Of a stretch of DNA of 64,000 nt, positions 3,156 to 59,800 are shown one piece after another. The notes under the pieces are model-generated. The model did not search any database. It worked only from the letters and a program-made list of their open reading frames with translations, and had not been told where the DNA came from. The stretch spans positions 7,564,066 to 7,628,065 of the forward strand of contig NC_049985.1 in NCBI RefSeq assembly GCF_000003815.2, written 5' to 3'. The position numbers were made by a program, and so were the translations under genes. Source of the stretch: Branchiostoma floridae. Lineage: Eukaryota > Chordata > Leptocardii > Amphioxiformes > Branchiostomatidae. Position 1 is the first letter of the stretch, and every line of letters begins with the position of its first letter.

Positions 3156-4218
3156 ACATTATTACCATGTATAGTGTCATAGAAAACCACAATAGTTATT
3201 TACATGTGTACTTATAAAACTCATGCAGTGAATCCTTAACACAACAAGTGCCAGAGATGAATCTATGAGCAAGGGAACAATGGGAATTTTCGATGGTAAA
3301 TATGAGGATGGTATTACGTGGATTATGGAAGTAGGGTCTTATATTGTTTAGAATTTATGTCATTTTCTAAGAATTGTTGCATGATTGGTGAAACATACTC
3401 TTTTTTAACATACAGTAAATTTTAATGTAATATTTGTGGATTTGTCAGTGGTCAACTTTCAGGTACTTTGCAGAAATACCTGTATTCTTGGATCTCTAAA
3501 TGTTTGTACACTTGTGCAATAGACATGAAAATGAGTCTTAGTGCAAAGAGACAAAGGTTCAGTTACTAGACATGAAAATGAGTCTTAGTGCAAAGAGACA
3601 AAGGTTCAGTTACTAGACATGAAAATGAGTCTTAGTGCAAAGAGACAAAGGTTCAGTTACTAGTATTGAAGATACTCTCTGGCTTGTACAGCTGGTACAT
3701 ATGATCCTGACTGCCCATCACGATTAGCAGTTCAACCAATGAAAAGAATGGCAATTATTCATTTGACCAATGAGAGAGTGGCCACACTTGTCAAAAAATT
3801 GTATTTTTATGTTTTTCTTTTGCATTTCTACATTTTGATGGGGGTGGTCAGGATTTTTTCAATGACATTATGGCATAAATCTTAAGAGATCTACATGTTC
3901 CTAAAACAAAGAAACATTGGCTGCTAGTGGCGTACATAAACAATTACATTTGTATCTGTAAATATTTATTGTCTCAAACAAATGTACATCACTTGTGTTT
4001 AACACACTACAAACATATACTGCCAACTTAAAATGTCTGTGACAATTGTAATATAAGGACTACAGCATTGACTGAGGGTGATTCTCCAGAGTAAACTTAC
4101 AAAAGTTGTTTTTAATGTAGATATAAAGGTATTAAACTCTTGACTACAGAACACATATGTACATTAAAAAGGGATGTCTATCAAATATCTATGGTTATGT
4201 CATGTGGAAAGATTCTTA
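3156..4218. other. 3' UTR / convergent spacer between TMEM184C and PRMT9
   Basis: No gene is seen. The stretch should hold both 3' UTRs. It contains three 47-bp tandem copies (3521-3661) and a member of a dispersed repeat (about 3712-3845) also seen near 1110-1210 and 12015-12140. An AATAAA on the minus strand near 3962 is a plausible PRMT9 polyadenylation signal. Confidence 0.7.
3521..3661. repeat. 47-bp tandem repeat, three copies
   Basis: Copies start at 3521, 3568 and 3615, each beginning AGACATGAAAATGAGTC and apparently identical. The lack of divergence indicates a very recent expansion in the 3' flank of TMEM184C. The period (47) is not a multiple of three and nothing is encoded. Confidence 0.95.
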
Positions 4219-27749: not shown

Positions 27750-28164
27750 GTTGTCACTCTAACCAAAGGTGAAGAGTTCACAGGAGGTGGTTGACCTTTT
27801 CACTTTCACCTAACCTTAACTGTACTGTGGCGCCGGTTTCAGGTTGTGCTTAACTTCCGGATCAGATTTCCTACAGTCCTTCGGTGGTACTAGGTAAGAT
27901 ATATGATATCTTCTTTTTTCCTGGCAGTTTACCTTTTTCTGTAAATAAGAGTAGGATATTTTACGGCGCGGCAAACAAGGGAATTTATCATGATTGTTAG
28001 AAAAATATACTGATGAAAAATTGCTTTCATGCGCTTCAAATTGACCTTTTTAATAGCAGACCGATACGAAAGACAGGAAAGGGTACAGCTACAGATGCGA
28101 TAATCAAGGAAGTTATAATGATCCTTCTCATGATAGCAGCATATTGGCGTTGCCTAGCCATAAT

Positions 28165-28348
28165 TAATCTCCAAGCAGATTCCTCCGGTGGCTTAAAACA
28201 GTAACATAAGCTGGGGAAGGAGANNNNNNNNNNNNNNNNNNNNNNNNNNNNNNNNNNNNNNNNNNNNNNNNNNNNNNNNNNNNNNNNNNNNNNNNNNNNN
28301 NNNNNNNNNNNNNNNNNNNNNNNACCGGAGGGAATCTCTTGGAGATTA
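28165..28348. mobile_element. TCTCCAAGCAG fold-back MITE spanning the N gap
   Basis: The left arm TAATCTCCAAGCAGATTCC (28165) and the complementary right arm (28324-28348, ending CTTGGAGATTA) lie on opposite sides of the 100-N gap. The right arm starts at the first base after the gap, so the missing sequence is the interior of this element, of unknown size. Confidence 0.65.
28224..28323. other. Assembly gap (100 N)
   Basis: Exactly 100 unknown bases, a conventional placeholder, so the true length is unknown. Confidence 1.
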
Positions 28349-28974
28349 AGCTATAATATCATATGGTAGGAAACACCAGACCTATTACTAGTACGAGTAG
28401 CAGGCCGTACAGTACGTACAGAAAAACAACATAAGCTGGCAAAGGAGAAAACCCCGACAAACACGCATAAAAGACGTAAGAAGGGGACCAGGGTCTAATT
28501 ATAATCTCTAATGTGGTAATACATAAAAACGATTAGGATTATCTAAAAGTGTTGGCCTATGCCACCATGGGAGCATTTCTGTGCTACCAGGCAATATATT
28601 ACCCGCGTATATATAGCGTTCACGCCTTACTTAGTCACTGACCTTGGTCAATATTTAACCGTAGTGTACACAATGTTGTAAGGAGAAATTTGACTCTACA
28701 GCCACAACATGGTGTGATTTTTTATCAACCCCAGTGCTAGTGGTACATATTAAACTTCATCGTTTTTATGGTTTAGTATTGCATGTATAAAGACGCATTT
28801 AAAGAATAGACCAAGTATGATGCAAGATCATATAATAACTAAACCAATCATGTATCAACGAAGAAAAAAATGGTGCAACAGCAATCTATACCGTACCGTA
28901 AAGACAAAAAGAAATACCATACAGATATTAAGTATCATTTTTTTCGCCCCTATTTAATTACAGAAAGAAGCGGC

Positions 28975-31568
28975 ATGGCGTCCTTGCTCCGCCGCTTGGC
29001 CCGTCCGGCCGTCCTGATACCCTTGGGGGTCCCTGTTGGGCTGTACACCTTCGCTAAACTCAACCCTGACGCGGCTTCAGCCTACTACAAGCGCGGCTTC
29101 GCTTGGGCCTGCGCCAGAAGCACGGAGTCCAATAACAAGAAGCTTCAAGAACTGAAGCAGGACATGTTTACTGGTTTGAAGGAACAAGACGGGGGTTCGA
29201 GTTCCTTACAAGTTTTGGAGATCGGCGCTGGGAGTGGGGCCAACTTTAAGTACTTTCCCCCGGGAACTTCCGTGATCGCTGTCGACCCCAACCCCCACTT
29301 TGACCAGTACCTGAAAGAAAATTCTGACGAGTACCCAGAAGTCAAGGTATACCAATAATCCCTTGTTCTGTTATTTTCTATCCATGATTTAGAAATTTAT
29401 AGTTTGCTGTTATGATTGAAAAAAAAAACAACATAAACACCTGAAGTAAAATCATGCGCTGGTTCTGATGAAAATTTACCAGGTGACGAAGTTCGTAGTT
29501 GCGGGTGCAGAAGACATGGCTGACGTTGCGGAAGGATCTGTGGACGCTGTCGTGTGTACTTTGGTCCTGTGCTCCGTCCATGACGTCGACGCCGTCCTTG
29601 GAGAGGTTAAAAGAGTTCTCAAGCCGGTAAATTTTCACTTATATTCAAACGTGTAAACGTTACGTACACATAGACATCAAGCAATGGTCAATATAGAAAA
29701 ATAAATGCAATAATAAGAATTCCATAGCTGGAAATGAAAATGCATATAATAGTGACATTTGAATTTTGGGCACGTGAAAAATTGATTCGGCAAGTAATTT
29801 TTTGGACAAGTGAATTTAAGAAAACTTGTCCAACCCCGTTTAGGCTTAGCCTCCATAGCAGGCTCTGCAAGAGGCCGGCGATCAGAAAACGCCAGCAATC
29901 AGCGACCGAGTACAAATAGAAATGGCCAGCAAAAGTGTATTATGAGCCCCCAAAAAGGCCCCAAAGAGCCTGCTATGGAGGCTAGTTTTTGCTTCAGTAC
30001 CATGGAGGTTTCATGCGTAGGTTAACGGCTGGGGTACAGTACACATTGTCGCGGCCGTGGTTTATGTTCGGGTTTTTGGTTTCTTCTTAAGATCTTCTAC
30101 TAGCAAATAAATCCACTACATTGCGATAGGAAGACAGGTTCTTCTTTTCGATTTAAAAAAAGGGGGGGGGTAGAAACCACTCGGAATGCGTTCCCTTCCT
30201 CCAGCCCCTCCGTAAGAGGGGGACGGTCATCAATGGCCGGGAGCCCGGTACCCCAGGGGCACCACTCCCGACCCGCTTCGCGCTCAGAAGGGAACGCTAC
30301 TGCTCGTCATCGTGGCTTCTGCGTGCGTTCACGTTTCCGTGAGAATGCACGGGTCACATACTATAGAAATGATCCCTTAAAGTATGATCTTGATGACTAT
30401 AGGTTGTTACATAATACAAGTATAAAAACTTCACAACTTTCTTAATGGCTTTATTACCGCAAAATATCCATACATTAGTCAAATCTAAAAAGCATTTGGT
30501 AGACAATAACATAATCGTGTTAAAGAAGATTATTTCACTTAATTATTGACGGAAATTTTTAAAGACATTTATGTAGCTATCGGCAGTAATTGAACAATAG
30601 GTCAGTTATAGTCCACCATGCATGTTTAAAGTAGGTACGCTGCATCATGGGAAAGCGGGAGATTTAAGATGTCAAAATAAACAATTGTTTCCGCTTTGAG
30701 GAGGGCGTATTTGTGGTCTGTATTAAACGCAAGAGAACTTAAGAACGACTTGGTGGATCGTGATGATATTTGGTAAAACGTGGGAATACGAAGCCGTATG
30801 GGCAGTATGGGTCATGTTTGGCCTCCTTACGGCTAATCTTGGTACTGCAGCAAAACTTTCCGTTTTTTGGATCTTTTGTCCTGGACATGCTATCATTTTC
30901 ATTCTTTTCACACAGACAGAAGTGCATTCCGAGTGGCTTCTCCCCAATTAATTGGAAAACTTCAATTCAAATGTAGGCTGGGTCTCCTAGCATCTTGATC
31001 AGGAACTGCAGGGGCGTTTTCTTTTTGCATATTTTTAAGCCAATTGTGGATCTTAATAAAGTCAAAGAGAGGATAAATTAACTTCGGTATGCGGGTAGCT
31101 TAGAAAAAGATATATACAAGTAAACTGCTTGTAGGAATGAAATCTCCCAACTCTTGTCGAAGACCGTGTTTGTTTGTTTGCTTCTCCGTTAGATCAAGGA
31201 GGTTATATAACCTCCTTGATTATACTTTACAAATTACTGGCGAAATCTTTTCTTCCTGGAGTCCATACAAAATTACAGAAAATCAAATAACATAACGAGT
31301 CAACAAAAGTGTGAATCATGTTGTTCCTCCGCAGGGCGGGAAGTTCTACTTCCTGGAGCATGTTCGGCACCCTACCCAGGCCTGGGTACAGTCCCTACAG
31401 GACATTCTCACGCCGGTGTTCCGGGTACTGTCGGACGGCTGTCAGCCCAACAGGGAGACGTGGAAACACGTGGATAGTGCCGGCTTCTCGGACGTGCAGT
31501 ACAAGATAGAGGGAAACCTCAGGCCTAAGGTCATCATGCAGATTCTGTACGGCACGGCCACGAAATAA
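28975..31568 (+). CDS. METTL7/TMT1-like methyltransferase, copy B
   Basis: Same family as copy A. Three exons, 28975-29346, 29483-29626 and 31335-31568, give 249 residues. The start MASLLRRLARPAVLIPLGVP is preferred over the earlier in-frame ATG at 28870 because it matches copy C. The N-terminal hydrophobic anchor spans about residues 10-30. SAM motif I is VLEIGAGSGANFKYFPPG, then SVIAVDPNPHF, VVCTLVLCSV and RVLKP|GGKFYFLEHV, ending ILYGTATK. The middle exon encodes exactly the same 48 residues as copy C. Intron 2 (29627-31334) holds a small inverted repeat and part of a dispersed repeat. The gene is intact as read. Confidence 0.9.
29847..29984. repeat. Inverted repeat in copy B intron 2
   Basis: A 19-bp perfect arm, TAGCCTCCATAGCAGGCTC (29847-29865), is matched by its complement at 29966-29984, about 100 bp apart. 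A small fold-back or MITE remnant. Confidence 0.65.
30712..31140 (+). repeat. Dispersed repeat, 'GATATTTGGTA' family, copy 1
   Basis: It shares a consistent order of short blocks with 51543-52030 and 60762-61360: TGATATTTGGTA, GGTACTGCAGCA, a TTTTTTGGATCTTTTG-like block, GGGTCTCCTAGCA, GGAACTGCAGGGGCG and GGTATGCGGGTAGCTTA. It is non-coding. The class is unknown. Confidence 0.6.
31194..31221. repeat. Perfect 28-bp palindrome
   Basis: ATCAAGGAGGTTAT followed directly by its exact complement, with no spacer. It lies in copy B intron 2, 113 bp before exon 3. A related AACCTCCTTG half occurs at about 62910. Confidence 0.85.
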
Positions 31569-34500: not shown

Positions 34501-34704
34501 CGAATTGTTTACGCGGGGCTGCATTAAGTCTCTTGTATATTGATTAAGTAGTGGTATGGCGTTGACCAATGTACTGCCCCATTTTTGTGTATTAGCTATT
34601 GTGTACCTGGGCTGACTATATTTTTAAAATAGCATTTTTATTTTGCCTCAGGTGGCTAAAATAATAGTCGTCACACCTGCTCCAGCCACAGGAAGGCGGC
34701 ACAT
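31569..34704. other. Spacer between METTL7-like copies B and C
   Basis: No gene is supported. It contains a hairpin (32103-32140: AACCAAGGAGCTTTT and its complement around an A run) and a TTAA-flanked MITE (32801-33132). The rest shows nothing recognisable. Confidence 0.7.
32801..33132. mobile_element. 332-bp MITE flanked by TTAA
   Basis: Inverted ends of about 25 bp (GCTAAGGGCACGACCCGCCG at 32801; complement ending 33132) are flanked on both sides by TTAA (32797-32800, 33133-33136). TTAA duplication suggests piggyBac-like mobilisation, but the terminal bases are not the usual CCC/CCT of piggyBac. The interior is rich in ACGTGC/ACGTGG and has no frame of note. Confidence 0.75.
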
Positions 34705-36283
34705 ATGGCCTCAGTCCTCCGCCGTGTGGCCGTCTCCGCTACCCTGGTGTCCCTAACCGTTCCTGCCGGACTGTACGCCTTCGCCAAACTCAGCCCTGAG
34801 ACGGCAGCAGTCTACTGCAAGCCTGCGTTCCTCTGGATATGTGCTAGACTCAAAAGAATCAACCAGAAGCGATTTTCTCGATTGAAAGAGAACATATTTT
34901 CTGGGCTGAGGGAACAAGATGGGAGATCTTTGCAAGTTTTGGAGATCGGGCCGGGGAAAGGAACCAACTTTGAATATTTTCCCCCAAGAACTTCTGTGAT
35001 CGCTGTTGACCCCAACCCCTACTTTAAACTTGATCTTGAAGAAAGTTCCAAACGGTACCCCGATGTTAAGGTAGGAAAGTCTAAGATATTCTAAAACCGT
35101 CGCAATATAGAAATGAATACTAATAACAAAATACCAAGTATGATGTTACATGTGCTATGTGGTAAGATTATCAATGATACAAAGCTATCTCGTTGCTGCC
35201 CATTCAATAAACAGACTGTTAATCATTAGTCCCGAAAGACCTGATTGTTTTTCATCAACTTGACCAGGTGACGAAGTTCGTAGTTGCTGGTGCAGAGGAC
35301 ATGGCTGACGTGGCGGAGGGATCTGTGGACGCTGTCGTGTGTACTTTGGTCCTGTGCTCCGTCCATGACGTCGACGCCGTCCTTGGAGAGGTCAAGAGAG
35401 TTCTCAAGCCGGTAATATCACAATAGCACGAAAACTAAGACTTAGTAAAACGTGCTCCAAAGGCTGTACCTTCTTCCTTTCAGCGCTCTAAATCATGAAT
35501 AGCGCTTTCGGGAATACTCTGCAGACTGTCTCAGATTCAGAACATAACTTGTACCTCCCCCATATATGTATATACGCATGCAGATGCTGTACATATATGA
35601 AACATTTAACCGTCTCTCATCATTGAACTTGAGTGTTTGTGCGTACCGTTTCACGCAAATATATTATTACATGGTAAGCCAACTTGAAACTCAAGTGTAC
35701 GTATGTGAGCTGCCCAAAACACCTTACTACCTAACAGTTGTATGCACGTACGTGCCGTATCGCCCTTGCTCAACGAAGTATATATGTCCATATAACCTTG
35801 CGCAAATCACTACATGTACATGTATCAGATGTCCCGGTACAACTTACCCTGGGAGCCAGCCGGGATCGGGCAGGCTTAAACTCCCCCGGCGCACTAATGT
35901 GAGATCTGCTGGCTGACTGCCTTGGGTCCCCGAACAAAACTCGCTAGCTACCCGGTCCTGTTTGGCTCCCAGGGTAGGTACAACTGTACCTGAATATCAA
36001 CGAAGTGCCAAACGCCAACAACACAAAACACCGTGTCTCTTTTCCTCAGGGAGGCAGGTTCTATTACCTGGAGCACGTGCGGCACCCGACCCTAGCCCGG
36101 ACACAGGCCCTACAGGAGCTGTTCAACTCCGTCTTCTACTCGCTCGGAGGCGGCTGCAATATAAACAGGGAAACGTGGAGAAACATCGACAATGCCGGCT
36201 TCTCAGACGTCAAGTACAAAATGGAGGGCAACATCAGGCCCAAGTTCATGTTTCACATGCTGTATGGGACGGCTGTAAAGTAG
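34705..36283 (+). CDS. METTL7/TMT1-like methyltransferase, copy C
   Basis: Same family and exon plan as copy B: 34705-35070, 35268-35411 and 36050-36283, giving 247 residues ending TAG. It starts MASVLRRVAVSATLVSL, with an N-terminal hydrophobic anchor. Motif I is VLEIGPGKGTNFEYFPP (GxGxG kept), then SVIAVDPNPYF, the shared middle exon, and GGRFYYLEHVRHPTLA to MLYGTAVK. By eye, exons 1 and 3 have drifted from copy B to roughly 60 percent protein identity, while exon 2 has not changed at the protein level. An inverted-repeat element lies in intron 2 (35845-35976), close to the acceptor. Intact and probably functional. Confidence 0.9.
35845..35976. mobile_element. Small fold-back element in copy C intron 2
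   Basis: Arms TACCCTGGGAGCCA (35845-35858) and the exact complement (35963-35976) are about 105 bp apart. The right arm ends 73 bp before exon 3. Confidence 0.6.
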
Positions 36284-37196: not shown

Positions 37197-40100
37197 ATGA
37201 TGGTGGAATATAAGGAGATGTTAGAAGACGGTAGCGTAACGTCTACTCCTAAACGGTCGGCTAGCGGGAGTAACATCTCCACCCCGGTCCGGATGAGGGA
37301 CCAGTCGGTGCCGGGGAGTGTAACCTCCACCCCGCGGAGGTACGGGGACATCTCCGTTGGTACAAGCAGGAGCGCGACGCCGAAGCGGCGGACCAGGAGC
37401 ACGCTGGACGGGAGGGGGCTGAGGGATGCCCCGCCGCCCATCGTCGGGATACTCGGCTGTGGGGAGTTCGGACTGGCCTTGGCTAGGAAACTGCTGAAGT
37501 CTGGCTATCAGGTACTGTAGACTTATGGGTTAAAGCATTTACCCAAGACAACTGAATTTACTGTTTGGAAATACATCGGTGTGTTTGTGTGTGTGTGTAT
37601 GTGTGTGTGTCTCTGTGTGTGTGAGAGAGAGTGTGTGTGTGTGCGCGCGTGCGTGTGTGTGTGTGTGAGAGAGAGAGAGTGTGTGTGTGTGTGTGAGCGC
37701 GCGCGCGTGTACATATGCGTGTATGTTTGATGCGAGCGTGCATCACGGTATGCACGCATACGTGTGTGTTTGGCCCAACCAAGGAGGTTGAAAAGGTGGT
37801 TAACCCCCATTTAATAGCCCAACAGTGTTGTACGGTATGTCCATAATATCATAATAACTTAACGTGTAGGTGATAATAAAATACACACCCTTTCATTTGT
37901 CTATTTCCTATTCGCAGGTAGTGTTGGGAACACGTGACCCAGAGGCGATGAAGAACCTGGTTCCGTTGGGCGTGACGCTCACCACGCGGTACGAAGCGGT
38001 ACTGCAGGCGGAGGTGGTGTTCCTGGCGGTCCGGAGGGACCACTACGATCAGCTGGTGTTTCTGACGGACGCCATGAGCGGGAAAATACTGGTGGACGTC
38101 AGCATCACCAGCAGGTTCAACGACGGTGAGGCGAAGTTTCACTAATCCAGCAATTTCTTTGTCAAAGACATCTAAACGTCAGCAGGGCGTTCAGTGTAAT
38201 ATAACCAGCTGCTGCCACGCCGCGTGCCTGCGAAGCTGGTGTGTTACGTCGAAGGGCGGTTATACCGGCTATAAAGATACAGATACAAATACAGATACAG
38301 ATAAACGACTAACATTTCCATGGTCACCCTCTAAAGGATGTTTGATAGAGCGGTTGGAGTGGGACAGAGCTCGGTCAAAATATGATTCGTCAGCATAGAG
38401 TGGGAGGCACTGGGAAAATCCACCGGCTGTGATGGTTTGGTATGGCTGTTTTGTGTCTGGTACTCAGTTCATCTACCAGGACTAGATAGAAAACTTAGAG
38501 TAATTTGTATGTAAGCTAGCTGCATATTAGAGTGGTCTTTCCTTGATTACGGAAGCATATTTTAACTAGAAAGGCCGACATTTGCTTAAGAGCAAATACA
38601 GCATATTTCAGCCATACCCCTTCCCACGCAACATTGGACTGTTCCAAATCACCCCTGCGCAAAAATGGAACATCCCCTTAACAGTACATTATCCCCCAAA
38701 GTGGACTGGTATTGTGAATTGACTCCAGGTAAAAACAGAGCTTGCTTCTATTTTTCAGAAAATGACAATAATCACACCTTCCATTCAGAAAATTTTCATC
38801 ATGACTGAAAATTGTTGAATGACTTCATGTAATGTCATTAACAATTTTCAGTACGATAACTAGGTGTAAGTTTAAAAAAGTATAAGCTCCTTGTGATGTG
38901 GGTACATTTATTATTGCAATGAACTTTTTTTATTCAAGTAGGGCATACGATTTAATAATTATCAAGCAGGTGCAGGTACTGTAGGAGCGTTTGTTTTCTT
39001 CAAGCTGTAAAACTGTTAAACTGTTTTACTTTGTATGCAATCAACCATCGAGCCTATTCTTATTTTAGTTTAACAACTTCCTGCCAGACCCGGAAGATAC
39101 GATTGAACTTTGTTCGAGGATTTATTTTCGTCTGTCTGGTCAGTCTGTTCATACCCTGGCGCTGAGAGTGTTTTATTGGGCTGAAACTCTGGCAGTTTAA
39201 AGTTACTTACAATTTAAATGTTCAAAGTTTATGCCAAACAACAACAGCACTAGGAAATGTGGCCACTATAGACAGGTGGTCACTATAGAGAAAATGCTGA
39301 TCTATTGACTAGGAGCCATACGTTACACATGATTTCAGTACACTGATCATTAATCATATAAACATTGCACAGGTAAGCCAATTGTTTAGATGTACAATTA
39401 AGTTCAAATAATTCTGAAGAGAAATATTGATGAGAAAATAATCATTCTCGCCACTGTCTAACTTATAATTACGTATCAAAACTAAACGCAGATTTTCTAA
39501 CTAACGCACCTTTCGCCGACTTCATCATAGGACCGCCGGCTATCAATCAAACACGGCTGTTGATTAGACTTAGAGTTTCAAACAGTCATGTGCTGTGTGC
39601 CAGTTGACAGCGAACTTCATGCTACGTGATGTTTTACATTGCTTGGACCTTCTTTCCTACAGCGGTGCTTCTACAAAATATTTAGACTGTAACACTGAGT
39701 TTTATAGAATAGAATTTGACGCAGAACAGCGTTTTTTGCTGGGTATTTTTTTTTAAACATGTCCGTGGGAATATCAGCGAGGCGGCGACGTAGGGATATC
39801 AGACCGTCAACAAAAGTCGCACGGCGGCTAACGGCGCAGCGAAGATACTAGCGCTATAAATAAGCGCTTCAACTAAGGATGGCAACCCGTACAATATTTT
39901 TGTATACTGTTGAGCTAAGTAAAGTTTGTTGTTTATGAGGTTTTAGTTGTCTTTGAAGCTTTGACCCGAAATATTTTAAAGTCAAACTGCTGAAGAGAAG
40001 TAAGTGACTGCTACGATTATCGTAGATATGGCCCTAAAAAAACTGATAAAAGAAGCCTTCTCAATAGCCTAAAATGCAAGAGCTTCCGGGGGGGCTTCGC

Positions 40101-43100
40101 CCACCTGGGTCCCCCCCACAGTGGCCCTGCCCCTGGACCCCGCCAGGGACATTCGGCGGCCCCCGGACCCCTGTCCGACGCTTTGAAAAAATCCTGGCGA
40201 GAAGTCTGTACGGCCTGAGTCTTCAAGTTAACGTATTGTGTGGTCCCGCTTATGAATATTAATTAGCCTTCGCTTTCCTCTTCGCTGATTGGCTGAACCA
40301 TTAATTGAATTAACTCTTCCTGCCGGCTAGACGCAGGTGCAGATGTCGGCTCTGTGGGGTGAACGTCCGAAAGGTCACGGCATGGAGAACGAAAGAAAAC
40401 CAATTTCCCCTAAAAAAGTGCTGTAATTAAGCCTTTTACAGTACTTTATGCCAAAAATTTTACTTGGATCATTTTACCAACTATATTATGCCTATCTATA
40501 CCAAATGTTACTCATACCAGGGTACAGGGGTGAAAAATATACCGTTATAAGACCGTCAACAACAGTCGCACGGAGCTAACAGCGCAGCGAAAATACCATC
40601 GCTAGCGTTTCAACTTCGGATAACAAGTTATAAGTACTGTTGAACTCAGTAACGTTAAAGTTTGTTTTTAGTTGCCTTTGACGGTTTGACCTGAAACAGT
40701 GTTACGCTAAACTCCTGAAGAGAAGTTAAGTGACTGCTGCGATTATCATAGATATGCCCCTAAGAACTGATACAATATAAAGCCTTCTGAATAGTCTAAA
40801 ATGCGAGAGCCTTAGGCGGGCTTTGCTCCCCCTGGCGGGAACACTGCTATATACGGGATCATGAGGCCCCGCTTATGAATATCAATTAGCCTTTGGCCTC
40901 CTCTTCGCTGATTGGCTAGGTCTTTGATTCAATTAACTCTCCGCCTGACGCGCACAGGTGTGGCTCTGTGCGGGGTCACGGAAGGTCACGTCAGGAGGCC
41001 AAAAGAAAACAAATTTCCCCTCAGAAAAGTGCCAAAATTAATCATTTTAAAGTTGTTTATGTCAAAAATTTTACTTGAATCTTGTTACCAAGTATCTAAT
41101 GCCTATCTATACCAAATTTCAGGTCATTTAATTGTAATACCAGGGTACAGGAGCCAAAAGTGTCCTTTTTTGGTCAAAAATTGGCCAAAAATCGCAAAAA
41201 TAAGCATTTTGTTGCACTGTACACCAAAAGTGTTATTGAATTTATATGAAGGGATTATCAAGGCACATCTGTGTCAAATTTCAGCTCATTCGGTTGCAAT
41301 ACCAAGGTACAGGAGCCAAAAGTGTCCTTTTTTGGTCAAAAATTGGTCAAAAAATCGCAAAAATAAGCATTTTGTTGTACTGTACACCAAAAGTGTTCTT
41401 AAATTTATATGGGGGCATTATCAAGGCACATCTCTGTCAAATTTCAGCTCATTTGGTTGTAATACCAGGGTACAGGGGCCAAAAGTGTCCTTTTTTGGTC
41501 AAAAATTGGTCAAAAAATCGCAAAAATAAGCATTTTGCTGTACTGTACACCAAAACTGATATTGAATCTATATGGGGGACTTATCAAGGCACATCTGTGC
41601 CAAATTTCAGCTCATTCGGTTATAATACCAGGGTACAGGGGGCCCAAATATACAGTTTTGGTCTTAAGATGACCAAAAAACCTTAATAAAATCATTTAAG
41701 AGACAGATATGGAAAAAATGAAAAAAACGCCCGAGGGTATTGGCCTACTCTACCCTTGTGCCAAATTTCAAGTCATTCGGTTGAGGAACAACGGAGATAC
41801 CGTGTTCTGAAGATTTGACAGGAGAAAGAAACATTACGAATACAATATATTTCACCATACCTATGGTATGGCTGAAATATAAAGACACATTCCGTAAAAA
41901 AACCTTTGTCTACGACCCGAATATCTACAGGGTACCTGTGGAAGATACAGAGATGTATACATCTAACTCAGTTTTTAAGTACAACAAACTAACCTAGCAT
42001 CTTGACTGTCTGAAGGTTTGCGCTCCAACGCGGAGTATCTGCAGTGGCGGCTGTTCCCGTCCTGCAGGGTTGTGAAGGGGTTTAACGTCATCCCGGCCGC
42101 CGCGCTGGACGCAGAACTCATGGACGGGCCCAAACAGGTACGGGCGGACTGGCCGAGAACTAGGAGATCTCCGCCGCTCGGGGTTTTAGGAGGTTGGAGC
42201 TAACCCCGAACGAATAAAACTTTTACCATGCGCCATAGTTGACCTGGGCGGGGGCGATTTCCCACAAGAGCACCCGTCCAACCCACGATAGGCTGGATGG
42301 CAGGTTAGCAGAGACTGCACGTACATCATGACTCTCTTCTCCCCTTTCCATTTTCATCCGCTCAATTGTAGCATTGCAACTTGAATAAAACGCCCCTGTA
42401 GTGCTAAGACAAGCTGGTAGGTGATCCAAATCTATGAGACACATTCCCGACCCTAAACGTTATCTGCCACCCAAACATCAAGACCATAGCATATTAAGAA
42501 CAGAAGCTATTGGGAAAAAGCAGATGTTAGGCTGCAGTACCAAGGAAAACCGCTAGAAGTCCTAAAATCGACCCGTATCTTCATAAGCATGTTTGCAAGA
42601 CCTTAACATAGATATGTTCTGAAGGCAGTACATATCCATATACTTAAACAGATATGTTTAATCTGCATACTCCTCTTTATCTTACTACATATGCAGGTGT
42701 ACCTCTGTGGCGATGACCACCACGCCAAAGCCACAGTCACCCACATCGTTTACGACCTCGGGTTCATTCCCGTGGACCTCGGCGCGCTGAAGTCGGCGGG
42801 GCACATCGAGACCATCCCCGCTCGCTTCCTGCCCTACTGGGGCCTGCCCGTCAGCGTCGGGATCTGGCTCTTCATCGTCATGTTTCTCTACGTCATGATT
42901 CAGGTGGGAGACATTCTCGGCGTGTTGTACAGATTCAATTGACTGGAAACTACTTCGCAACGGGTAGAAACGATTGCACTGTTTAGTGTTTGTGTTGTAT
43001 TATATCATAGGATGTTGTACTACAGTATATGTTATGACAGGGCAGCATTCTTCGGTTGCTTGAGTAACTGCTTTTTGGCGACTTTTATATTGCGTTCCCG

Positions 43101-45593
43101 GCGGTCCCCGGTTTGAAAAAGGTGATACTTGCATTAAGTTAAATTGTAAAGGTTCTTCAGTCACATAGATACATTTACCATTCGGATATTTCTTGTTTCT
43201 CCAGGACATCATCCGCCCTTCAGTCTCGGACGGGTCGAATGAGCTGTCCCGTCTCCCCCTGTTCCTGGTCAACCGCGTCTTGGCCTTCGTGGCGGGAACC
43301 TTGCTGTCCGCGGCGTTCTTCCCCGACATCTTCATCCGGCTGGTGCGCATCTTCAAGGGGTACGGGTACCGCGACTTCCCGGTGTGGCTCGGGGAGTGGC
43401 GGAAGGCTCGGCGGCACATTTGTTTGGTGGGGGTGATCGTGGGAGCCGTGCACGCCATCATGTCCCTCACCATCCTCAGCCCCACCTACTACCCCGAGCT
43501 GTACGAGAAGACGTCCAACCGCGGGATCCCGGCCCTAGGTAGGAAGATATAGGGATTAATTTAGCCTCTACCAGGCTGGGGAGGAAGTGTTTTAGGACTG
43601 GTCTATTTTACCTTTTTACATGTGGTGCACTGGAAGAGTTCAGTCTTGCATGTTAAGATATTTTAGGATTCTTTTTTTGGGACTAACTGTGTCATTTTTT
43701 AAGCAGAAGTGTTCCATTTTTGCACATGGGCGATTTTGGAACAGTCTATTGTTGGAGAGAAGTGGCTGAAATATGCTGTATTTGCTCTCAATCAAATGTC
43801 GGCCTTTCTAGTTACTCTTGTTTTTAGCTTTTATCAGTTGATTACAACAGATTATGAGGACGTCGACAATCCTTGTGTGGGAGGAGTGTAAGGTAGATGA
43901 TATTTGGTGTATCTCAGGATTTGCCGTTTACATGATGAAGGAGTAAAGGATGTGGCTTTTCCAGTCTTCTTCCATCTACGTAAAGGTTGAAAAGGGTGAC
44001 GTTTCCATTGTGTTCTGTTGCAAAGAAAACACACCGAGTTTCATCCCAAACGTGCATAATCAGCCCAGAAGTGAATAATGAGGCCCTCTCACTCATTTTC
44101 ACCCAGTCATTAGGGGTAAGGACCCCCCCCCCCCCAAGGTCCGTTTAATCCCATCCAGGATCTAATAGTGTACACTACAGCGTAAATATTGTTGTCTTTC
44201 TCTTCCTCGCAGGTAAGATGATGTGGTCGGGGGAGGCGTTTGCGTCCATGGGCGCGGTGTGCCTGTCGGCCCTGCTCATCCTAGGTATCGCCAACATGCC
44301 GTCGGGGAAGGACAAGCTGAACTGGCGGGAGACGACCTTCCTGTGGTCCAACCTCGGCACGGTCGCGCTGTTCACCGCCACGTTCCACGTGGTGTTCCTG
44401 GGGATACAGGTGTACCCGAACGGATCTCTTTACAGGTGAGACCGATACAGCTGCAGGACTACCCAACGCTACAAGTGAGACCGATATAGGTGTGTCCGAA
44501 CGGATCTCACTACAGGTGAGACCTATATACGTAGGTGTACATTAACAGGTCACTCTACAGGTGCACCAGAACGGGTCTCTCTACAAGTGAGGCCGATACA
44601 GGTGTACCCAAACGGATCTCTCTACAGGTGAGGCCGATACAGGTGTGCCCGAACGGGTCTCTCTTCAAAGGTGAGACCGATATGGGTGTGCCCGATGGGT
44701 CTCTCTACAGATACAGGTACAGGTGTACAGGTGTACCCGAACGGGTCTCTCTACAGGTGAGGCCGATACAGGTGTGCACGAACGGGTCTCTCTACAGGTG
44801 AGCCGATACAGGTGTGCCCTAACGGGTCTCTCTTCAGGTGAGGCCGATACAGGTGTGCCCTAATGGGTCTCTCTACAGGTGAGGCCGATACAGGTGTGCC
44901 CTAACGGGTCCCTCTACAGGTGAGGCCGATACAGGTGTGCCCTAACGGGTCCCTCTACAGGTGAGACTGATGCAGGTGTGCCCGAACGGGTCACTCTACA
45001 GGTGAGACCGGTGCAGGTGTGCCCGAACGGATCTCTCTACAGGTGAGGCTGTTACAGGTGTGCCCGAACGGATCTCTCTACAGGTGAGGCTGATACAGGT
45101 GTGCCCGAACGGATCTCTCTACAGGTGAGGCTGATACAGGTGTGCCCGAACGGATCTCTCTACAGGTGAGGCTGATACAGGTGTGCCCGAATGGGTCTCT
45201 CTACAGGTGAGGCTGTTAAAGGTGTGCCCGAACGGATCTCTCTACAGGTGAGGTCGATACAGTTGTAAATGAGGTCGTTATAGGTATACTCAAACGAGTC
45301 TCTCAACAGGTCACAGGTGTACCCTAAGGGGTATACGATTTCGGTAGTAGAGTTCCTTTTATACATAGAGATTCTACCAACCTCCTGTAATTTTGTTGCA
45401 CTCCTCCAGCCTGTTCACCCTGCCGGTGTCGCTGATCTCGCTGTTCCCCCTGGCGGCTGCAGTACTACTGAAGTGCGTGACGTTGATCCCGTACCTACAG
45501 AAGCACGTCATCAGCATCCGGGACAGACTGCAGGGCAGGAAGCGGCTGGACGATGGGGACGAGCTCGTCGAATGTGTGGTGGTGAACCTGTGA
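37197..45593 (+). CDS. STEAP-family metalloreductase
   Basis: NADPH- and heme-dependent ferric/cupric reductase of the STEAP2/3/4 type, acting at plasma or endosomal membranes. Seven exons, 37197-37511, 37918-38125, 42016-42137, 42697-42903, 43205-43538, 44213-44435 and 45410-45593, are all in phase and give 530 residues. Residues 1-80 are an unusual Ser/Thr-Pro-Lys/Arg-rich extension (VTSTPKR, STPVR, VTSTPRR, SATPKRR). The F420H2-oxidoreductase-like NADP domain follows (about 82-245: VGILGCGEFGLALARKLL, VVLGTRDPEA, VVKGFNVIP). Next is the six-helix ferric-reductase-like domain with GAVHAIMSL (His about 367) and ATFHVVFLG (His about 454), the two expected heme ligands. Presence of the NADPH domain excludes STEAP1-type. 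The paralogue is not resolvable, hence no symbol. Its last intron carries the junction minisatellite. Confidence 0.92.
37565..37765. repeat. GT/GA/GC low-complexity tract
   Basis: (GT)n interrupted by (GA)n and GCGCGC runs in STEAP intron 1. Open frames across it encode His/Thr-rich or Thr/Arg-rich low-complexity strings and are not genes. Confidence 0.9.
38232..38273 (+). repeat. Dispersed 42-bp block (copy 1)
   Basis: It starts GAAGCTGGTGTGTTACG and runs through GGGCGGTTATACCGGCTATA into an AGATACAGATAC tract. An inverted copy lies at 59331-59374. Strong conservation over about 45 bp suggests the end of a dispersed element. Confidence 0.65.
38566..38690 (+). repeat. Interspersed repeat, inverted partner at 43685-43817
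   Basis: Blocks AGAAAGGCCGACATTTG, GAGCAAATACAGCATATTTC, GACTGTTCCAAA and CAAAAATGGAACA recur in reverse orientation at 43685-43817. One copy lies in each of two STEAP introns (2 and 5). Confidence 0.7.
38804..38852. repeat. Short hairpin
   Basis: ACTGAAAATTGTT-GAATGAC (38804-38823) pairs with GTCATTAACAATTTTCAGT (38834-38852) around a 10-nt loop. In STEAP intron 2. Confidence 0.6.
39790..41150. repeat. Direct tandem duplication, period about 750 bp
   Basis: A block beginning GACCGTCAACAA (about 39800) recurs from about 40551. Both copies contain GTCGCACGG, CTGAAGAGAAGT, ACTGCTACGATTATC-like, AAAATGC-AGAGC, CGCTTATGAATAT and CTCTTCGCTGATTGGCT in the same order. Copy 1 has an extra GC-rich insert near 40084-40190. 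It lies in STEAP intron 2. Confidence 0.75.
41154..41640. repeat. 162-163-bp tandem repeat, about three units
   Basis: Units start at 41154, 41316 and 41479 (each CCAAAAGTGTCC), with a partial one from 41643. Each contains TTGGTCAAAAATTGG, TACACCAAAA, TATCAAGGCACATC and AATTTCAGCTCATT. A related partial unit sits inside each copy of the 750-bp duplication. Because the first period is 162, it opens a long false reading frame. Confidence 0.9.
43685..43817 (-). repeat. Interspersed repeat, partner of 38566-38690
   Basis: Reverse-oriented copy sharing the blocks listed for 38566-38690, located in STEAP intron 5. Confidence 0.7.
44404..45315 (+). repeat. 41-bp minisatellite built from the STEAP exon 6 / intron 6 junction
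   Basis: About 22 units of a 41-bp period. The first unit is the real end of exon 6 (ATACAGGTGTACCCGAACGG then ATCTCTTTACAG) plus the true donor GTGAGACCGATACAG. Later units repeat exon tail and donor together, consensus CCGAACGGATCTCTCTACAG followed by GTGAGGCTGATACAG. Units near 45040-45180 are identical to one another; those at 44440-44700 are degraded. Each unit has a pyrimidine-rich CTCTCTACAG (acceptor-like) fused to GTGAGG (donor-like). Confidence 0.95.
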
Positions 45594-47923
45594 ACGAGAG
45601 CGAAGGAACTGTCCTTGGTGCTGAAATCACATTCACTGCGATGTATTAGGCTGACGTCACAGTTCCACAAAGGGGCCCTCCGGGCAGTTTTAGGGAACGA
45701 AACGTACGATGTAAAGGAGAACAAAAATGCAAAATGCACCAAAAATAATTCAACAGCATGCCTTGTGTATATTCATTAGCATAGAGTTTAATATTTCGTT
45801 TCCGCAAACAGCCAGGTCCACAGGTAGGAAATGTGACGTAGGCCGTATAGACAGCATAGACTGTTCCTACAATAGCTAGTGCGGCGGATGCCTTTCAAAA
45901 CTCACCTATATCTCTGTCATTTGACCTCACAGGAACTTAGATTGTTTACTTGTTCATATCTGATGTCTTGTTAAGTCACACGGTATACCTTTGCTTTTAC
46001 TTGTGTACTTGTAGTATTTATGGGGTACAGTTTTTGGAAGTCCACGATTCCTTATTGTCAGTACATGAAAAGGTATAATAAACAAAAGTTATGATAAGAA
46101 TTTCTCTTCAAGTATTCTGTTCATCGTGTTAGAAAAATTAAGTACAACTGTTTCTGTTTTAAAGGAGGGCAAGTATGACATACTAACGTAAGGTAGTGGA
46201 CGCTACCTGAAACGTATGACCATTTAAAGATTTATGTAGCCACTGTTATCTTCATCTACATATCAGGTATGAAACACTGTTGTAAGATAAGAATTCCTGA
46301 AATATTAAAGACGTCCTTTTGTCAAACGCCCTTTGAATAGTGAAAGTGGAAATTCTATCTAGTTTCAGCGGACAAGTGAAGGCCTTTTCTGAAATCCCTA
46401 GTAATTTTCAGTCGGACAAATACTATAGTACGCGTAACACTTAACAAATGGCCCCCCTTAGACCTTGTGAAGCATAGCATGACACTCCTTTCAAGTACCT
46501 TTCACACATGACGTATCACCAGTCCCACGTAACTAGCAACACGCCTTGCTTACTTGCGAAGCTTAATGGTGAAAAGTAAACAAAGAACACAATACTGCCC
46601 AACCCACTATTTAAATGGGCAGGGTATGTTTTGGCGTGACCTCGTGGACGCTGCACATACAGCAGTATGTATGTCAGAGCAGGATTGACACAACTACTGG
46701 GTCCGCCTTTAGAGGCTCCTTAACCTAGAATTCTACCAAAGGTTGGTAAGTTACATGTATTTATCTGTCTTGTTCACCTTTAGTTTGCTCTAGCGTTCGT
46801 TTCCCCGTCACACCCTCTCGTACGGTTTAGAGTAAAACAAGGTTCTTCAAGTCGCTCATGTAGACGAGTTCTAGTCATTGAATCTGTTCGTGTTGACTTG
46901 TTGGTCAGTTGTACGTAAATGCCAATCATACCTGCTTTGACGTAATCCTGTTTAATTTCTATGGGCACATTTACTGGAATATGCAATGCAATGCCACTGG
47001 ATAACAACATTCCTTGCAAACAACCTGTACGTTTCGTTGGCCGTCTGTTACCTTTCCAAGTACAATACTTACTGTATAAAGAACGTATCCAGTCATTTAA
47101 CAACCCGATGAAACTATTATTCACGTATGTCTGTCTCTGGTCTAGTACTAGTTCTAGAGAACACGTTTGAATGTAAAATTACACGGAGAAGAACATAACA
47201 TAAACATGAACCTTGAGGAAAAGATTCCGTCACCCGAACTAGTATTACATGGGCATGGCTAGTACAATCAAACAGGGCATTTCATTAGGATGTTTAAACA
47301 TATGGGCAGGGTAAAACTCGGTCCATTTGTAATATATTACCTGCATTACCGTCATAGTACACACACTTACCTTATCCTTATTCAGTCCCATGTCAACGGA
47401 CTGTCGGCAACACTGTAGTGTAAAATATATCTAAAGCCGCCATGTTTGTACAGTTATGCTGCATCACACATTAACAATCACACCATACACATAAGAGTAA
47501 CTGTTCTTCTGCAGTATGTTGAATGTTGAACATGAAAGCGTCTTTACGGATTACAGTTGGAGTGGAGGAATTCTGGGTTCATTGAGAAGATCATAAGGCA
47601 TAAGCCGACGATGATGATAATTTTGCTTGCCTGGGATTTCTCAACATAAGCCCCCATGATCCACCTTTAAAATATTCATTCATTCATCCATTCATTATGA
47701 GGGGGCAAAAAGGTGTCGATCTTTACTTCAACCTTTGCTCTATGAGGAGGTACGTCATGGGAAGATTGTGGCCTTATTCTTATTTGTCGACCTGTTTTCT
47801 TACAGTCGGCTATCCAACTAGGGATCAATTCCTGAGAACCGGTCAGAGACCACCACGATTATCAGCTTGGAGATCATCAACACCCACCATTTCAGAAGAC
47901 CCCATACACAATAAAAAAAAAAC
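45594..47923. other. Spacer between STEAP and DEG/ENaC genes
   Basis: STEAP 3' flank and DEG/ENaC 5' flank. Small frames exist (for example minus strand 46780-47124) but none resembles a family I know. No RNA gene or element boundary was found. Confidence 0.65.
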
Positions 47924-50899: not shown

Positions 50900-53800
50900 G
50901 TGGCAAATATACAAAAGTAACGGTCTCCTCTGTCAGCACTGGAACACCAGTGCTGAAGTGGTCGTCAGCACTGGTGTTCCAGTGCTGAGCCGGCGTCAGC
51001 ACTGGAAATCCAGTGTTGAGGCAGCTTCAGCACTGGAAGCCCTCCTGTCAGCACTGGAAACCGAGTGCTGAGACTACAATTAGCACTGGATTTCCAGTGC
51101 TGAGGACGTTTCAGCTCTGCAAATCCAGTGCTGACAAATATTCCGCACTGGAAACCGAGTGCCTAAGCCGTCGACTCTAAAGTACTTTTTTAAGTAGCGA
51201 CACGACTGTAAGTACTAACTCTTTGTAAAAAAAACAAGAATGGTGTTAAAAACACCCTGGCGACGCTGGGTCTAATGGATTTGTGAGTCTCTATATGAAA
51301 AGGATGTTTATTAGGTAGCCATGCTCACAACACAGTCTTGCACGCACACATTTCCATGCAATGATTCCATCTTGGGAGAAGCCTCGCAAACATTTTATCA
51401 ACTCTGCAAAAAAAGTTAAGCTTGCCTCATTCTGAGTAAATTCTGAAAATCTATATTTACCTTTGCCAAAATGTTATATTTGGGCGTGTTTAGCCGTCAG
51501 GTGACAACCCCTCTATCCATAACCCCCTATACTCCATACAAATATTTGTGTGTGTGTCTGTGAACAGTATAACTTGATTAAGTCTTGGATGGATCTTTAA
51601 TGGTATTTGGTAGTCAGGGAAATCGAAGGTCAAGTTCGATAATGGATCCCCAATCTACTCCCTAAGGTACTGCAGCGGAACTACTGTTTTTATATTTCCT
51701 GTTTCCTGACATTTCACGGTCTTGATTTTTTAAAGGTGGGTATCTCTTGGGGCAGAGAGTTAGTGCTGTAAGTTTGGATCCCCTAGCGCCTTTATTTTCG
51801 GAAATCGTTTCAAAGTTTAGAAGAGAATAAATCAAGAACGTTTTGATGGATCGTCATGCTTTTTAGGTTTTGTAATGTCTAATTTGCATAAGTAATGGCA
51901 AAATGTTATAAATCCCTACATTCCATCTAACTTCTCACATATGTAACTGAGAAAGACCGAAATTCTTTGGGTATCAATTATGCAAATAGATACCTCTTTT
52001 GCATAATCAATGACAGGATACTATAATTCTATAGTAGTAAATGATGGAAATTTCATATTTGAGGCATCACGAAGCAAACTAAAGCGAAAATTATTAAACA
52101 TAAATCATTCAAATCAGCAGGGTACGTCACATCTAATTTTTGAGGTAACGCTACAACAGCCTTCTTTGCTATCAGATAAGATTTTCATACTAAGATAAGA
52201 TTTTCATAGTTTAAACTTTTCCCACCTTATGTTCACCTGTACACACCTACATATTTTTTCTTAAGTTACAAGACCTATCTTAGACTTGGCCAGAACACTA
52301 GATATCAAAACCGAAAGTTCACTGCAGTACGCTAGAAAACCGATAGGCGGAACCATTTTAGAACTTGACTTTTATGTTCACGACCCTACACACATTCAAG
52401 ATTCATCAGAATCCATACTTTGCGAGTTATGCAGGCTACAAACAGACACACATGGAGATAAACGGCACCGAACACATAACCTTTAATGGACAAAGTTACG
52501 TTTTAACGTATTACGCTTGGGTTCTGTATTCAGTGCAAAGCTTTGTTGGGACTCCCTCACTCCAAAAGAGATATCTAAATAATACAAATTCCGACTACTA
52601 CCATGATACTATCTCCGCCGGACCAAACCTCTGCTTGGAGAATATGTGTCACGATGGTCTAAAAAGGCCCTGAAAATCCTATCTTGAAAGCCATGTCAAT
52701 CAATGTCAATCATCCATTTCACTAATGGAAACGGTAGCTGATTGGTTCTCACCTTTGAGGGCGGAAACTTGAAATGTTTTTGTTTCACCTAGACGAGCTG
52801 AATTTTTCCCGCGAACTTACCCTTTCAAATGCACGCCTGTCTCCGCCCCAATTGTTCCCCTGTTTGCACAGTAAACAATACCCAAGCTTTCATTCCTACG
52901 ATGACGCATCTTTAATACTGACACAGCCCTCTCAGTCCCTTCTTTGCTATATTCTCGTCTATTCTGTCACCAATATTTATAAAATACCGAAGCTAAGGTG
53001 CAAGGAAATATCAGTTTCCGACATTCCCCCGGGGCATTCCCCGCGCGGGGCCGGTGACGCGCGGAACCCGTCGCCATTTCCGTTCTTTCCTACGTACATT
53101 ATATCTGCGCTAGACACACACAAATTTAACCGGCATAGTACGGATAGTTCGTCGATGAAGTCGACTTTCTATATATAATTTGTTTTCAAAACACATCCAT
53201 GAAAGCAACGTCAACACTGACCGCCTTGCTACATATTTCCGCCCTTGATTGAGAACTTGACTCTGGCCCTGTCCTGTTCTATCAATAATCGACAACGCCT
53301 CGGAAATATCAACCCTCGCTTTCCGATTTAATAAGGTATTCTTTCCAATAACTCATTACACCTATGTATTTCTCTATTCTAATGAACTACAGTTCCTGAT
53401 TCAATACGACCGGTAACAAACTCTGCACAAGCCGCTGTTTGATGCGTCGGCATGTGTTCGACTAGCTCTGGCGTCCTTGATAGGAAAATTGAAATTGAAA
53501 AAAAAAAGCCACATCTATGTAAATAAAAACGCAACTTGTAATGAAGCACACAATGTAAAGCAAAGTCTGGGGAAGAAGGGGGAATTGACGAGGGAGCTGG
53601 ATTAGATCGGTCGGCCGGCCCTCCAGTTTGTTTACAAACCGACGCCTGGCGATGTTTGAATCAATGTGTTGAAAAAAGGAAAATATATCGGCTTTTAATA
53701 CGTGGTAAACTTTTGGTGTCCTTCTGCTTGAAAATGATACATTACACAAACGATTTGAATTTTACTAAAACACACAGAAGTAATTTAGTTGGTGAAGGAG

Positions 53801-56800: not shown

Positions 56801-59800
56801 GAGCTGGTCAGATTGGCGAAGTTGAACTCAACTGCCGGACCGATTTTCACGGCCCTTCTATGGGATTCGGTCCGGTCGTGAGAATCGGTCCTCCCTCACA
56901 GTCTTCCAAATGGAGTAAACTATGTGATGACAATGACTTTTATTAACTCGAAAATGTCTATTTGAGTCATGACAGTCAGTTTCAGAGGTGGTTTGGGAAA
57001 GTTTTTGCGCTTTTCTTCAGGCCGGACCGATTTTCACGGCCCTTCTATGGGATTCGGTTCGGTCGTGAGAATCGGTCCTCCCTCACAGTCTTCCAAATGG
57101 AGTAAGAGTCTATGTGATGACAATGACTTTTATTAACTCGGAAATGTCTACATGTACTTGAGTCATGACAGTCAGTTTCAGAAGTGGCTGCGGAAATATA
57201 AATATACATATAAAAGTATCACAAATCTAGTCTAACACAGAAGTTCGGCTTCTTCTCGCTTCTTGTGTAGGATAACGTGAAAATGTAGGATTAACTCGGA
57301 CATTGACATTGTTTTAACATTCAAGTTTTTGCAGTAGTGGGATTGACAGAAGTTGTGGTGTTATGATTTCTTTAGAAGTGCTGAAAATACTTATTTACTA
57401 AATCTTATTAAGTCTTTTGAATTATGTCTACATATCTCCTATGTCCCATGAGTCCCATGAGCTACCATAGTTAGGTTGCCCCATCTTATGGAGTATTTTG
57501 AATTATGTCTACCCCACTCTTATGTCTTCGTTTTGATGTAATTGTCTGTCTAATTGAGTCGTCTGGAGCAATTATGTTTTTAATAGGGAGTTGAGATTGA
57601 ATGAATACAATTATTATACAATGTGATACTACTAATAATTAAACATCATATCTACAAGCTATGTACAGGCAGCACAGCTATGAATAATGTCTCTTGAATG
57701 CAGGCAGAGTCTCATAAGTCTGACATCCATGCTATATGCTAGCCCACATTCATAAGGATTTTAATTTTATTCTTTCTACTTTTGTAGTTGTCTACATTGT
57801 ACTGTGCGGATATTCTGGCCTTTCCAAATATACTCTCCAGTTGAATATTCCAGTAACGGTCAGCTGTTCCCTCTTCGTCCCTATCCACAGTTACAACGCC
57901 GCAGGGGTACGTACTTGACGATTACGTCAGACGATGGCGGTTCCAGTAGGTCAATGTTCGAAGCAGCTGCGGGTAAACGTCTTCGGTATGTCGTCAAGGT
58001 AAGTAAGCACGATGTTCCAATGCGTCGAGTAACCAGAGTTCAACTTATCACAACTTTAGGCAACTAAGTNNNNNNNNNNNNNNNNNNNNNNNNNNNNNNN
58101 NNNNNNNNNNNNNNNNNNNNNNNNNNNNNNNNNNNNNNNNNNNNNNNNNNNNNNNNNNNNNNNNNNNNNAAGGCATAGATAGGCTTACCTGACTCATGAA
58201 TGCCGAAGTTCCAATTTCTCCGTGTTTTCTGGTTGCTACGAATTGACAAGAAAGAGAAGAGAATTGTTCTTGTACTTCAATTTTAACCTTTGTTCTTTGC
58301 GTGCGTTCTCCCTACGTACAGCAGCTCCTGAGATGAACATTAGCTAACTGTGACGACCATCCATGTGGTGACTTAGTCCATGTAGAACACCAACAGACGT
58401 GCAGCGATAGTAGCAAATTTATGAGGGTGACTTTACAATAATCCATTATTGCTAGCATCACTATTATTATAGTATATAAAACGGGTAATACTGTGTTCTC
58501 TCGTGATCTAACGCACAGGCCAACCTACCGGACAAGAGCGACGACGACGAGGTGTTCCTGACAGACATATATTATGTCCATCAGAACGACACATTCCCAC
58601 CACACCCAACATAGAGACTCTTACCGCCACAAGGGAAGTAGGTCGAGTCCCTTCACGAAAAGTGGCCATCGCTGAGAAGAGCCAGAATATACGTTTGTGC
58701 GGCTTGAACATTCTTAACAGAAGGGAGCCACACAACATCCAGAACAGCGCCATCGACAGAAGGAAGGCACTATGAGGGAAGTAGAGGCCAGTAGCAGAGC
58801 CAAGACGTACAGCCGATAGTTGTGATCATACTTGTCCATGTACAGAAAACCTGACATGACACCAGTTATAGAATTCACGGATTGACTGACTGTTTATATC
58901 ACGAATATGTATTTTAGTGTATACATTGTAGTAGTTGATTTTACATGTATATGAATGGACCGTAGATGAAATAACCGTTGTTTTGTGGTTTGACAAGACC
59001 TGTCTGTTTGATACGCCAAAATGTGACCACGAGATATAATGTATTTGTATGACAGATAGTCAGAGAGTAAAGATCAGAAGAGAAATAAAGATCCTCAGCT
59101 AAGACCGAGGTTAGCGAGGTCAGCATTACTAGTATATAGTAACGTCAAACCACCTTAACAGTCTCCCGTGCCCAGTGTACGGAAAACCTTGTCTCTGCGT
59201 CCTTCCTTTATTATAGCTGTGCTAGTCTTCAAAGCAGAATCTAAACAACTTGAAACCCATTGGTTTCATGGCTTGTTTGAAACTTGTGACATATTAATTT
59301 TTCAAAATCAGGCTTTACGTAATCTGTATCTATATAGCCGGTATAACCGCCCTTCGGCGTAACACACCAGCTTCAATTCCAAACGACAACCACCTGAAAG
59401 CACATCATTTCATATTTCATAAAAAGATATCGACAAAAATCTGTGACACATTGGTCTTCATTATTTCTTTGACCTCGTGAAAGCATATCATCCCACCTTG
59501 TAAAAGCAAAACTCAAAAGATGTTGGCAAAAGTTGTGCTACATTAATTGGTCTTGTCTTCTTTAAAACATCTTATTTTCCTACCACTAAAAATCAGGCTC
59601 TCTATTACTCCGAACGATTTATTAACCACTTGACAGCATTTCATTCCATATTGTAAAAAGCGCAGGCTTATAGAGACATAACGGCAAAAAGCTGGGACAT
59701 ATTGGTCTTCATTGCAAATTCATAAAGCATGCAAAACATCGTAATAATCTGTGTGTGCGGCTTATGATATGCAAGGAGCGTAGTCATTCCCGGCTATGTA

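Follow-up and report, generated by a model that had tools for sequence, protein, structure and literature searches.

A 41-bp Minisatellite Across an Exon–Intron Boundary of an Amphioxus STEAP-Type Gene, Probably a Neutral Mirage

We analysed a stretch of 64,000 nucleotides from the lancelet Branchiostoma floridae (assembly GCF_000003815.2, contig NC_049985.1, positions 7,564,066 to 7,628,065 of the forward strand; hereafter the window, in whose numbering all coordinates are given), which carries a STEAP-type metalloreductase gene with a 41-bp tandem array running from the coding end of exon 6 into intron 6. Minisatellites lying across exon-intron boundaries of amphioxus genes have been described as "mirages" and are reported to splice normally in the cited parts of PMC3087553 and PMC3902484. 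The founder unit of the STEAP array (44403-44443) spans the predicted boundary 44435|44436, which places the array within this definition. It is a further case of an already described type of lancelet minisatellite, in a gene that is not among the mirage cases found in those parts. We propose that the array is probably a neutral mirage and that the first donor is mostly used; low-level use of the dual sites alongside it is a credible possibility. In this model, the exon 6/intron 6 boundary would have been tandemly duplicated and then expanded by slippage or unequal exchange, while the spliceosome would mainly pick the exon-attached donor at 44435, and the array would be removed as one intron, up to the acceptor that ends at 45409. 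If a downstream copy now and then served as donor, an in-frame TGA would follow at once and the mRNA would mostly be decayed, at little cost. The fused acceptor-donor look of the units would be inherited from the exon-6 end and its donor, and not built by selection for recursive splicing.

A STEAP-type gene with a tandem array at the end of exon 6

The gene model consists of the following parts.

37197..45593, + strand: STEAP-type metalloreductase gene, 7-exon coding model, 530 aa, open joined frame, GT-AG introns
37197-37511, 37918-38125, 42016-42137 and 42697-42903, + strand: coding exons 1-4
43205-43538, 44213-44435 and 45410-45593, + strand: coding exons 5-7
44213..44435, + strand: exon 6, 223 nt, phase 2 at its end
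44436..45409, + strand: intron 6, 974 nt, with the array over most of its length
45410..45593, + strand: exon 7, last transmembrane helix (assigned from STEAP homology), C-terminus and stop

The exon ends and the choice of ATG are predicted from homology and splice consensus. The joined 530-aa protein matched STEAP2 (7tai, E 6.4e-80, query 61-514) and STEAP4 (6hcy, E 1.2e-72), both over the dehydrogenase and membrane parts, and Pfam returned F420_oxidored (E 2.2e-15), with matches confined to the NADP-binding part at residues 83-168.

The array itself is divided as follows.

44403..44443, + strand: founder unit, last 33 nt of exon 6 and first 8 nt of intron 6, 37/41 identical to the array consensus
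44444..45266, + strand: intronic copies of the 41-bp unit, 20 full and 1 partial, with AG|GTGAG kept in 16
45267..45326, + strand: degenerate 3' edge of the array

Wrap-around alignment placed the array at 44403-45266 and counted 21 full units, the first of them the exon/donor unit, besides a partial one. Tandem Repeats Finder (TRF) reported period 41 at 44556-45266 (17.2 copies, 88% matches, score 1002). The array decays 3' of 45266, where a copy of 61% identity (45263-45326) carries the similarity to 45326. An earlier sequence-only reading had counted about 22 units at 44404-45315, which comes close to this extent, and had taken the true exon end plus its donor for the founding unit, just as the position of 44403-44443 bears out. 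Its statement that nearly every unit joins CTCTCTACAG to GTGAGG was too strong, as intron 6 holds nine exact copies of that 16-mer, 11 of CTCTCTACAG and 12 of GTGAGG; what stands is the core AG|GTGAG, present in 16 of the 20 full intronic units. When CTCTCTACAGGTGAGG was searched at up to three mismatches, 17 occurrences were found in the window, all on the + strand at 44426-45253 and including the true donor, against an expected 0.39 and a maximum of three in any of 100 shuffles. At two places in the array CAA|GTGAG offers a donor without an acceptor AG. Preceding the fused AG|GT by 26 nt, most units carry a second one, of the type ACAG|GTGTGC; altogether, intron 6 contains 42 AGGT, with 16 of the GTGAG type and 19 of the GTGTG/GTGTA type. 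No inverted repeats of at least 12 nt were reported at 44150-45650. These results define the unit, the founder, the extent and the edge decay of the array.

The exon end as founder and the growth of the array

The alignment of the exon-6 end to STEAP2 is ungapped in the loop that it encodes, and that to STEAP4 opens a single-residue gap close by, both at low similarity. The ungapped match to STEAP2 makes the exon end more probably the founder, from which the intronic copies were derived. A search for local copies of splice boundaries, made with ungapped 30-mers at 70% identity or more up to 2.5 kb away, found 16 for the exon-6 donor boundary and none for the other 11 STEAP boundaries. The control gave 27 matches from 400 random centres, the 400 still counting centres inside the array, though these were skipped.

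We then compared the units with each other, using 19 of them for separation (the degenerate units starting at 44444 and 44524 were omitted) and 18 for column conservation (omitting, in addition, the exon unit), with the partial unit set aside in all of these tests. Neighbouring units were more alike, with a mean difference of 0.092 at separation 1 versus 0.119-0.154 beyond, and a Mantel test gave r 0.233, a value reached in 66 of 2000 permutations. The most degenerate units sit at the array edges. Likeness between neighbours and degenerate edge units are also reported for a globin mirage in the cited part of PMC3087553. Thus, neighbour homogenisation and degenerate edges of the mirage kind are weak but present in the STEAP array, as expected for slippage or unequal exchange.

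Splice-site strength of the copies

Donor and acceptor matrices and the U1 5' end were approximate vertebrate values, and the scores serve only to rank sites. The true exon-6 donor scored 11.23; among the 16 intronic AG|GTGAG copies, 12 scored above it (11.8-12.2), three were equal and one was below. The sequence-only reading had proposed the copies as decoy donors, which these predicted strengths make plausible. Pairing with U1 was -11.6 kcal/mol for CAG|GTGAGG versus -11.1 for the true donor. As an acceptor, the founder exon end scored 8.45, and 13 of the 16 fused copies ranked above the exon-7 acceptor (7.13), with a copy maximum of 9.01. Half of the six true acceptors, those of exons 2, 5 and 6 (9.97, 13.42 and 14.04), were above every copy; those of exons 3 and 4 scored 4.66 and 5.66. 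The GTGTG/GTGTA sites were weak acceptors (-0.9 to 3.8). Out of 589 AGGT scored on both strands of the window, 14 combined a donor score of at least 11.2 with an acceptor score of at least 7.1; 13 of these lie in the array, and the true donor makes up the fourteenth. Within 16-42 nt upstream, 4/16 fused sites and 4/6 real acceptors have a match to the branch-point motif yTnAy; the exon-7 acceptor has none.

Recursive sites are described as a juxtaposed 3'/5' motif around AG|GT in very long introns (PMC6110457 and PMC5126111, cited in part), and the cited part of PMC6110457 confines recursive splicing in flies to introns that are very long and have very strong 3' splice sites. The STEAP units share the AG|GT juxtaposition with the recursive (ratchet, zero-length exon) sites of flies and mammals. 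The likeness to such sites drawn in the sequence-only reading holds for this form, as 13/16 copies are predicted to equal or exceed both the true donor and the exon-7 acceptor, but it is not supported beyond that, since intron 6 has 974 nt and is no very long intron in the sense of PMC6110457, acceptor scores reach 9.0 at most, a branch-point match accompanies 4/16 sites, the founder itself already had the dual form, and the sites form a tandem array beginning at the true donor. The founder owes its dual form to its coding sequence, a pyrimidine-rich exon-6 end followed by a donor, and because the founder exon end was already dual, the fused form in the array would be a by-product of copying.

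Column conservation gave no clear sign of selection on the fused junction. Across the 18 units the fused AG|GT reaches 97% conservation, a level attained by 10 of the 41 four-column windows (counting its own), and this test lent no support to selection maintaining the fused sites. Some of the least conserved columns appear to be CpG positions, and mutation alone may explain the pattern.

The reading frame closes after any downstream donor

44437..44439, + strand: TGA in frame with exon 6, immediately after the donor, ending every downstream-donor product

With exon 6 closing on AG in phase 2, AG|GTGA is read as AGG TGA and every downstream donor runs into this TGA. All 91 downstream GT donors tested yielded one identical truncation, with the stop after residue 470 and before the last helix, confirming the earlier expectation that a misused donor truncates the protein there. 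A shift of three units (123 nt), which had been thought to add 41 in-phase residues if the frame stayed open, cannot give such an extension, as the same TGA stops 91/91 products. Retention of intron 6 also ended at TGA 44437-44439, and splicing to an array acceptor with the rest of the intron retained was in frame in 0/42 cases. This leaves cassettes as the only way to insert in frame. The 42 AGGT sites gave 861 cassette pairs; 274 had a length divisible by 3 and 25, between 6 and 249 nt long, stayed open and in frame. Six of the 25 share a regular form of 108 nt that runs from an ACAG|GTGTGC acceptor to a fused donor two units further on. All 329 cassettes starting at a fused GTGAG site stopped immediately.

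Products of all 42 AGGT donors place the stop 50-877 nt upstream of the last junction. By the 50-nt rule of vertebrates, decay of such mRNAs would be favoured. Given a stop at least 50 nt before the last junction for 42/42 donors, these mRNAs would mostly be substrates of nonsense-mediated decay (NMD), at low cost. A phase-2 exon end followed by a GTGA donor ends the frame immediately, which suggests a reason why the array may be tolerated.

Relation to known mirages and weighing of other explanations

The amphioxus mirages in the cited parts of PMC3087553 and PMC3902484 (Adh3, the globins BflGb6/BflGb9 and troponin C) hit both 5' and 3' boundaries. Adh3 units measure 10-72 bp there, a range that includes the 41 bp of the STEAP unit, and BflGb6 has 3 and 6 units of 150-160 bp on the acceptor side, whereas the STEAP array has about 20 x 41 bp at a donor boundary. 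Unlike the mirages cited from these parts, the STEAP units belong to another gene and join an acceptor-like run to a consensus donor. Splicing is reported there as regular for the Adh3 and globin mirages despite AG/GT in the copies (PMC3087553), and no aberrant mRNAs are reported for Adh and troponin C, to which PGBD5 is likened with normal splicing inferred for it (PMC3902484). No lancelet STEAP array appeared among the titles of the literature matches listed.

Several observations weigh against a neutral array spliced at its first donor. The decoy donors match or beat the true donor in 15/16 cases by position weight matrix (PWM), and mirage copies could serve as cryptic sites according to the cited part of PMC3087553. 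RNA structure hiding the array splice sites was considered but found no support: the array RNA is predicted to be less folded than its shuffles (20/20 fold as well or better, z +2.38), and with such low structure the sites look accessible. The 11-column junction block CTACAGGTGAG ranks high in conservation (3/41 windows reach its level, its own among them), the likeness of neighbouring units is a weak signal (Mantel r 0.233), and human dual-specific sites with weaker scores are in use (PMC10809524, cited in part).

One rival idea is that the copies act as both acceptor and donor, forming a ladder of dual-specific sites over which the spliceosome would take out intron 6 stepwise and stochastically, in most cases without trace in the mRNA because a zero-length exon restores the identical junction. 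It agrees with the AGGT that score as high as both the true donor and the exon-7 acceptor, 14 of 589 in the window, of which 13 are array copies and one is the founder, and with the tandem dual-specific AGGT sites of human UBC, whose use yields isoform ladders (PMC10809524, in the part cited). We nevertheless consider it unlikely, since the intron has only 974 nt, a branch-point match accompanies 4/16 sites, every copy falls below 3/6 real acceptors, the scores come from approximate vertebrate PWMs, and amphioxus mirages are reported to splice normally (cited parts of PMC3087553 and PMC3902484). The likeness to UBC (and VCX3A) is that each repeat has one AGGT which in principle is donor or acceptor; the UBC units, however, are coding, 228 nt long, a multiple of 3, and give in-frame isoforms, whereas the STEAP units are intronic, 41 nt long and lead to an immediate stop (UBC data from the same part). 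In-frame retention or removal of repeats as in UBC does not fit a 41-nt unit with 25/861 cassettes open and in frame. A more specific version, in which the intron is removed stochastically in 41-nt multiples via some 16 inherited dual-specific sites and the mRNA is silent save for rare in-frame cassettes, e.g. of 108 nt or 36 codons from the unit's second AG|GT, seems to us distinctly improbable. If the ladder were true, array length would be a heritable and unstable dial of splicing kinetics and noise.

Regulated poison splicing, in which competition between decoys and 44435 would adjust STEAP output by way of truncated mRNAs that decay, to a degree set by array length, could draw on the 12/16 decoys above the true donor, on the TGA lying at least 50 nt before the last junction for 42/42 AGGT donors, and on the rat alpha-tropomyosin pseudo-exon, mentioned in the cited part of PMC5126111 as an NMD exon and a zero-length exon. 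It is very unlikely, as there is no sign of conservation or regulation and the decoys share the sequence of the true site, with nothing in them suggesting a switch. The last intron of vertebrate STEAP genes probably lies further upstream, and the array might mark the birth or re-siting of intron 6 by boundary duplication, as proposed for the amphioxus globins. An intron-gain model is given in PMC3087553, where the Rogers model of intron gain by tandem AGGT duplication is named, and the potato RdRp case is one of tandem-duplication intron gain (PMC4974935; both cited in part). Duplication across AG|GT is shared with this model, but exon 7 opens with CCTGTTC, lies outside the array and does not resemble the unit, and no local copy of its acceptor boundary was found; a simple AGGT-duplication origin of intron 6 does not fit and was rejected, and we hold the wider idea, that the array marks the birth or re-siting of the intron, to be very unlikely. 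As for a repeat collapsed or inflated in assembly, a globin mirage seems to have been misassembled in the draft genome (PMC3087553, cited part), and two N runs lie elsewhere in the window (28224-28323 and 58070-58169); the STEAP array, however, contains no N and many of its units differ by substitutions, and it is almost certainly no artefact.

As a probable neutral mirage, the STEAP array adds a metalloreductase gene to the mirage cases found in the cited parts of the literature. About 20 near-identical donors in one short intron make it a natural test of first-donor choice by the spliceosome, and of whether tandem dual-specific sites are used or ignored.

Other features of the gene and the window

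AG|GT ends four of the six STEAP introns, with GT opening exons 2, 3, 4 and 6 (37918, 42016, 42697 and 44213). The exon-6 acceptor (44200-44220), CTCTTCCTCGCAG|GTAAGATG, has the best score of the gene (14.0) and is fused to a donor-like GTAAGA (10.9). The exon-6 start thereby resembles a recursive splicing exon (RS-exon), and use of that donor after splicing would drop exon 6 (223 nt, frame-shifting). Away from any boundary, STEAP intron 2 holds a 163-bp tandem array (41113-41639, 3.2 copies, 91%).

Elsewhere in the window, two arrays of 31-bp units (50925-51170 and 60490-60705) lie about 9.5 kb apart and share a palindromic core close to TCAGCACTGGAAA(T/A)CCAGTGCTGA. A 47-bp unit at 3520-3663 is present in 3.1 copies with 100% identity, suggesting a very recent or homogenised repeat. 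Three related-looking open reading frames (ORFs) carry a VLEIGxGxGxNF motif, at 27141-27755 (-), 28843-29355 (+) and 34660-35091 (+); the latter two matched no Pfam family at 0.001, and the first matched Methyltransf_11 (E 8.5e-16). We presume that the trio may be a METTL7-like cluster.
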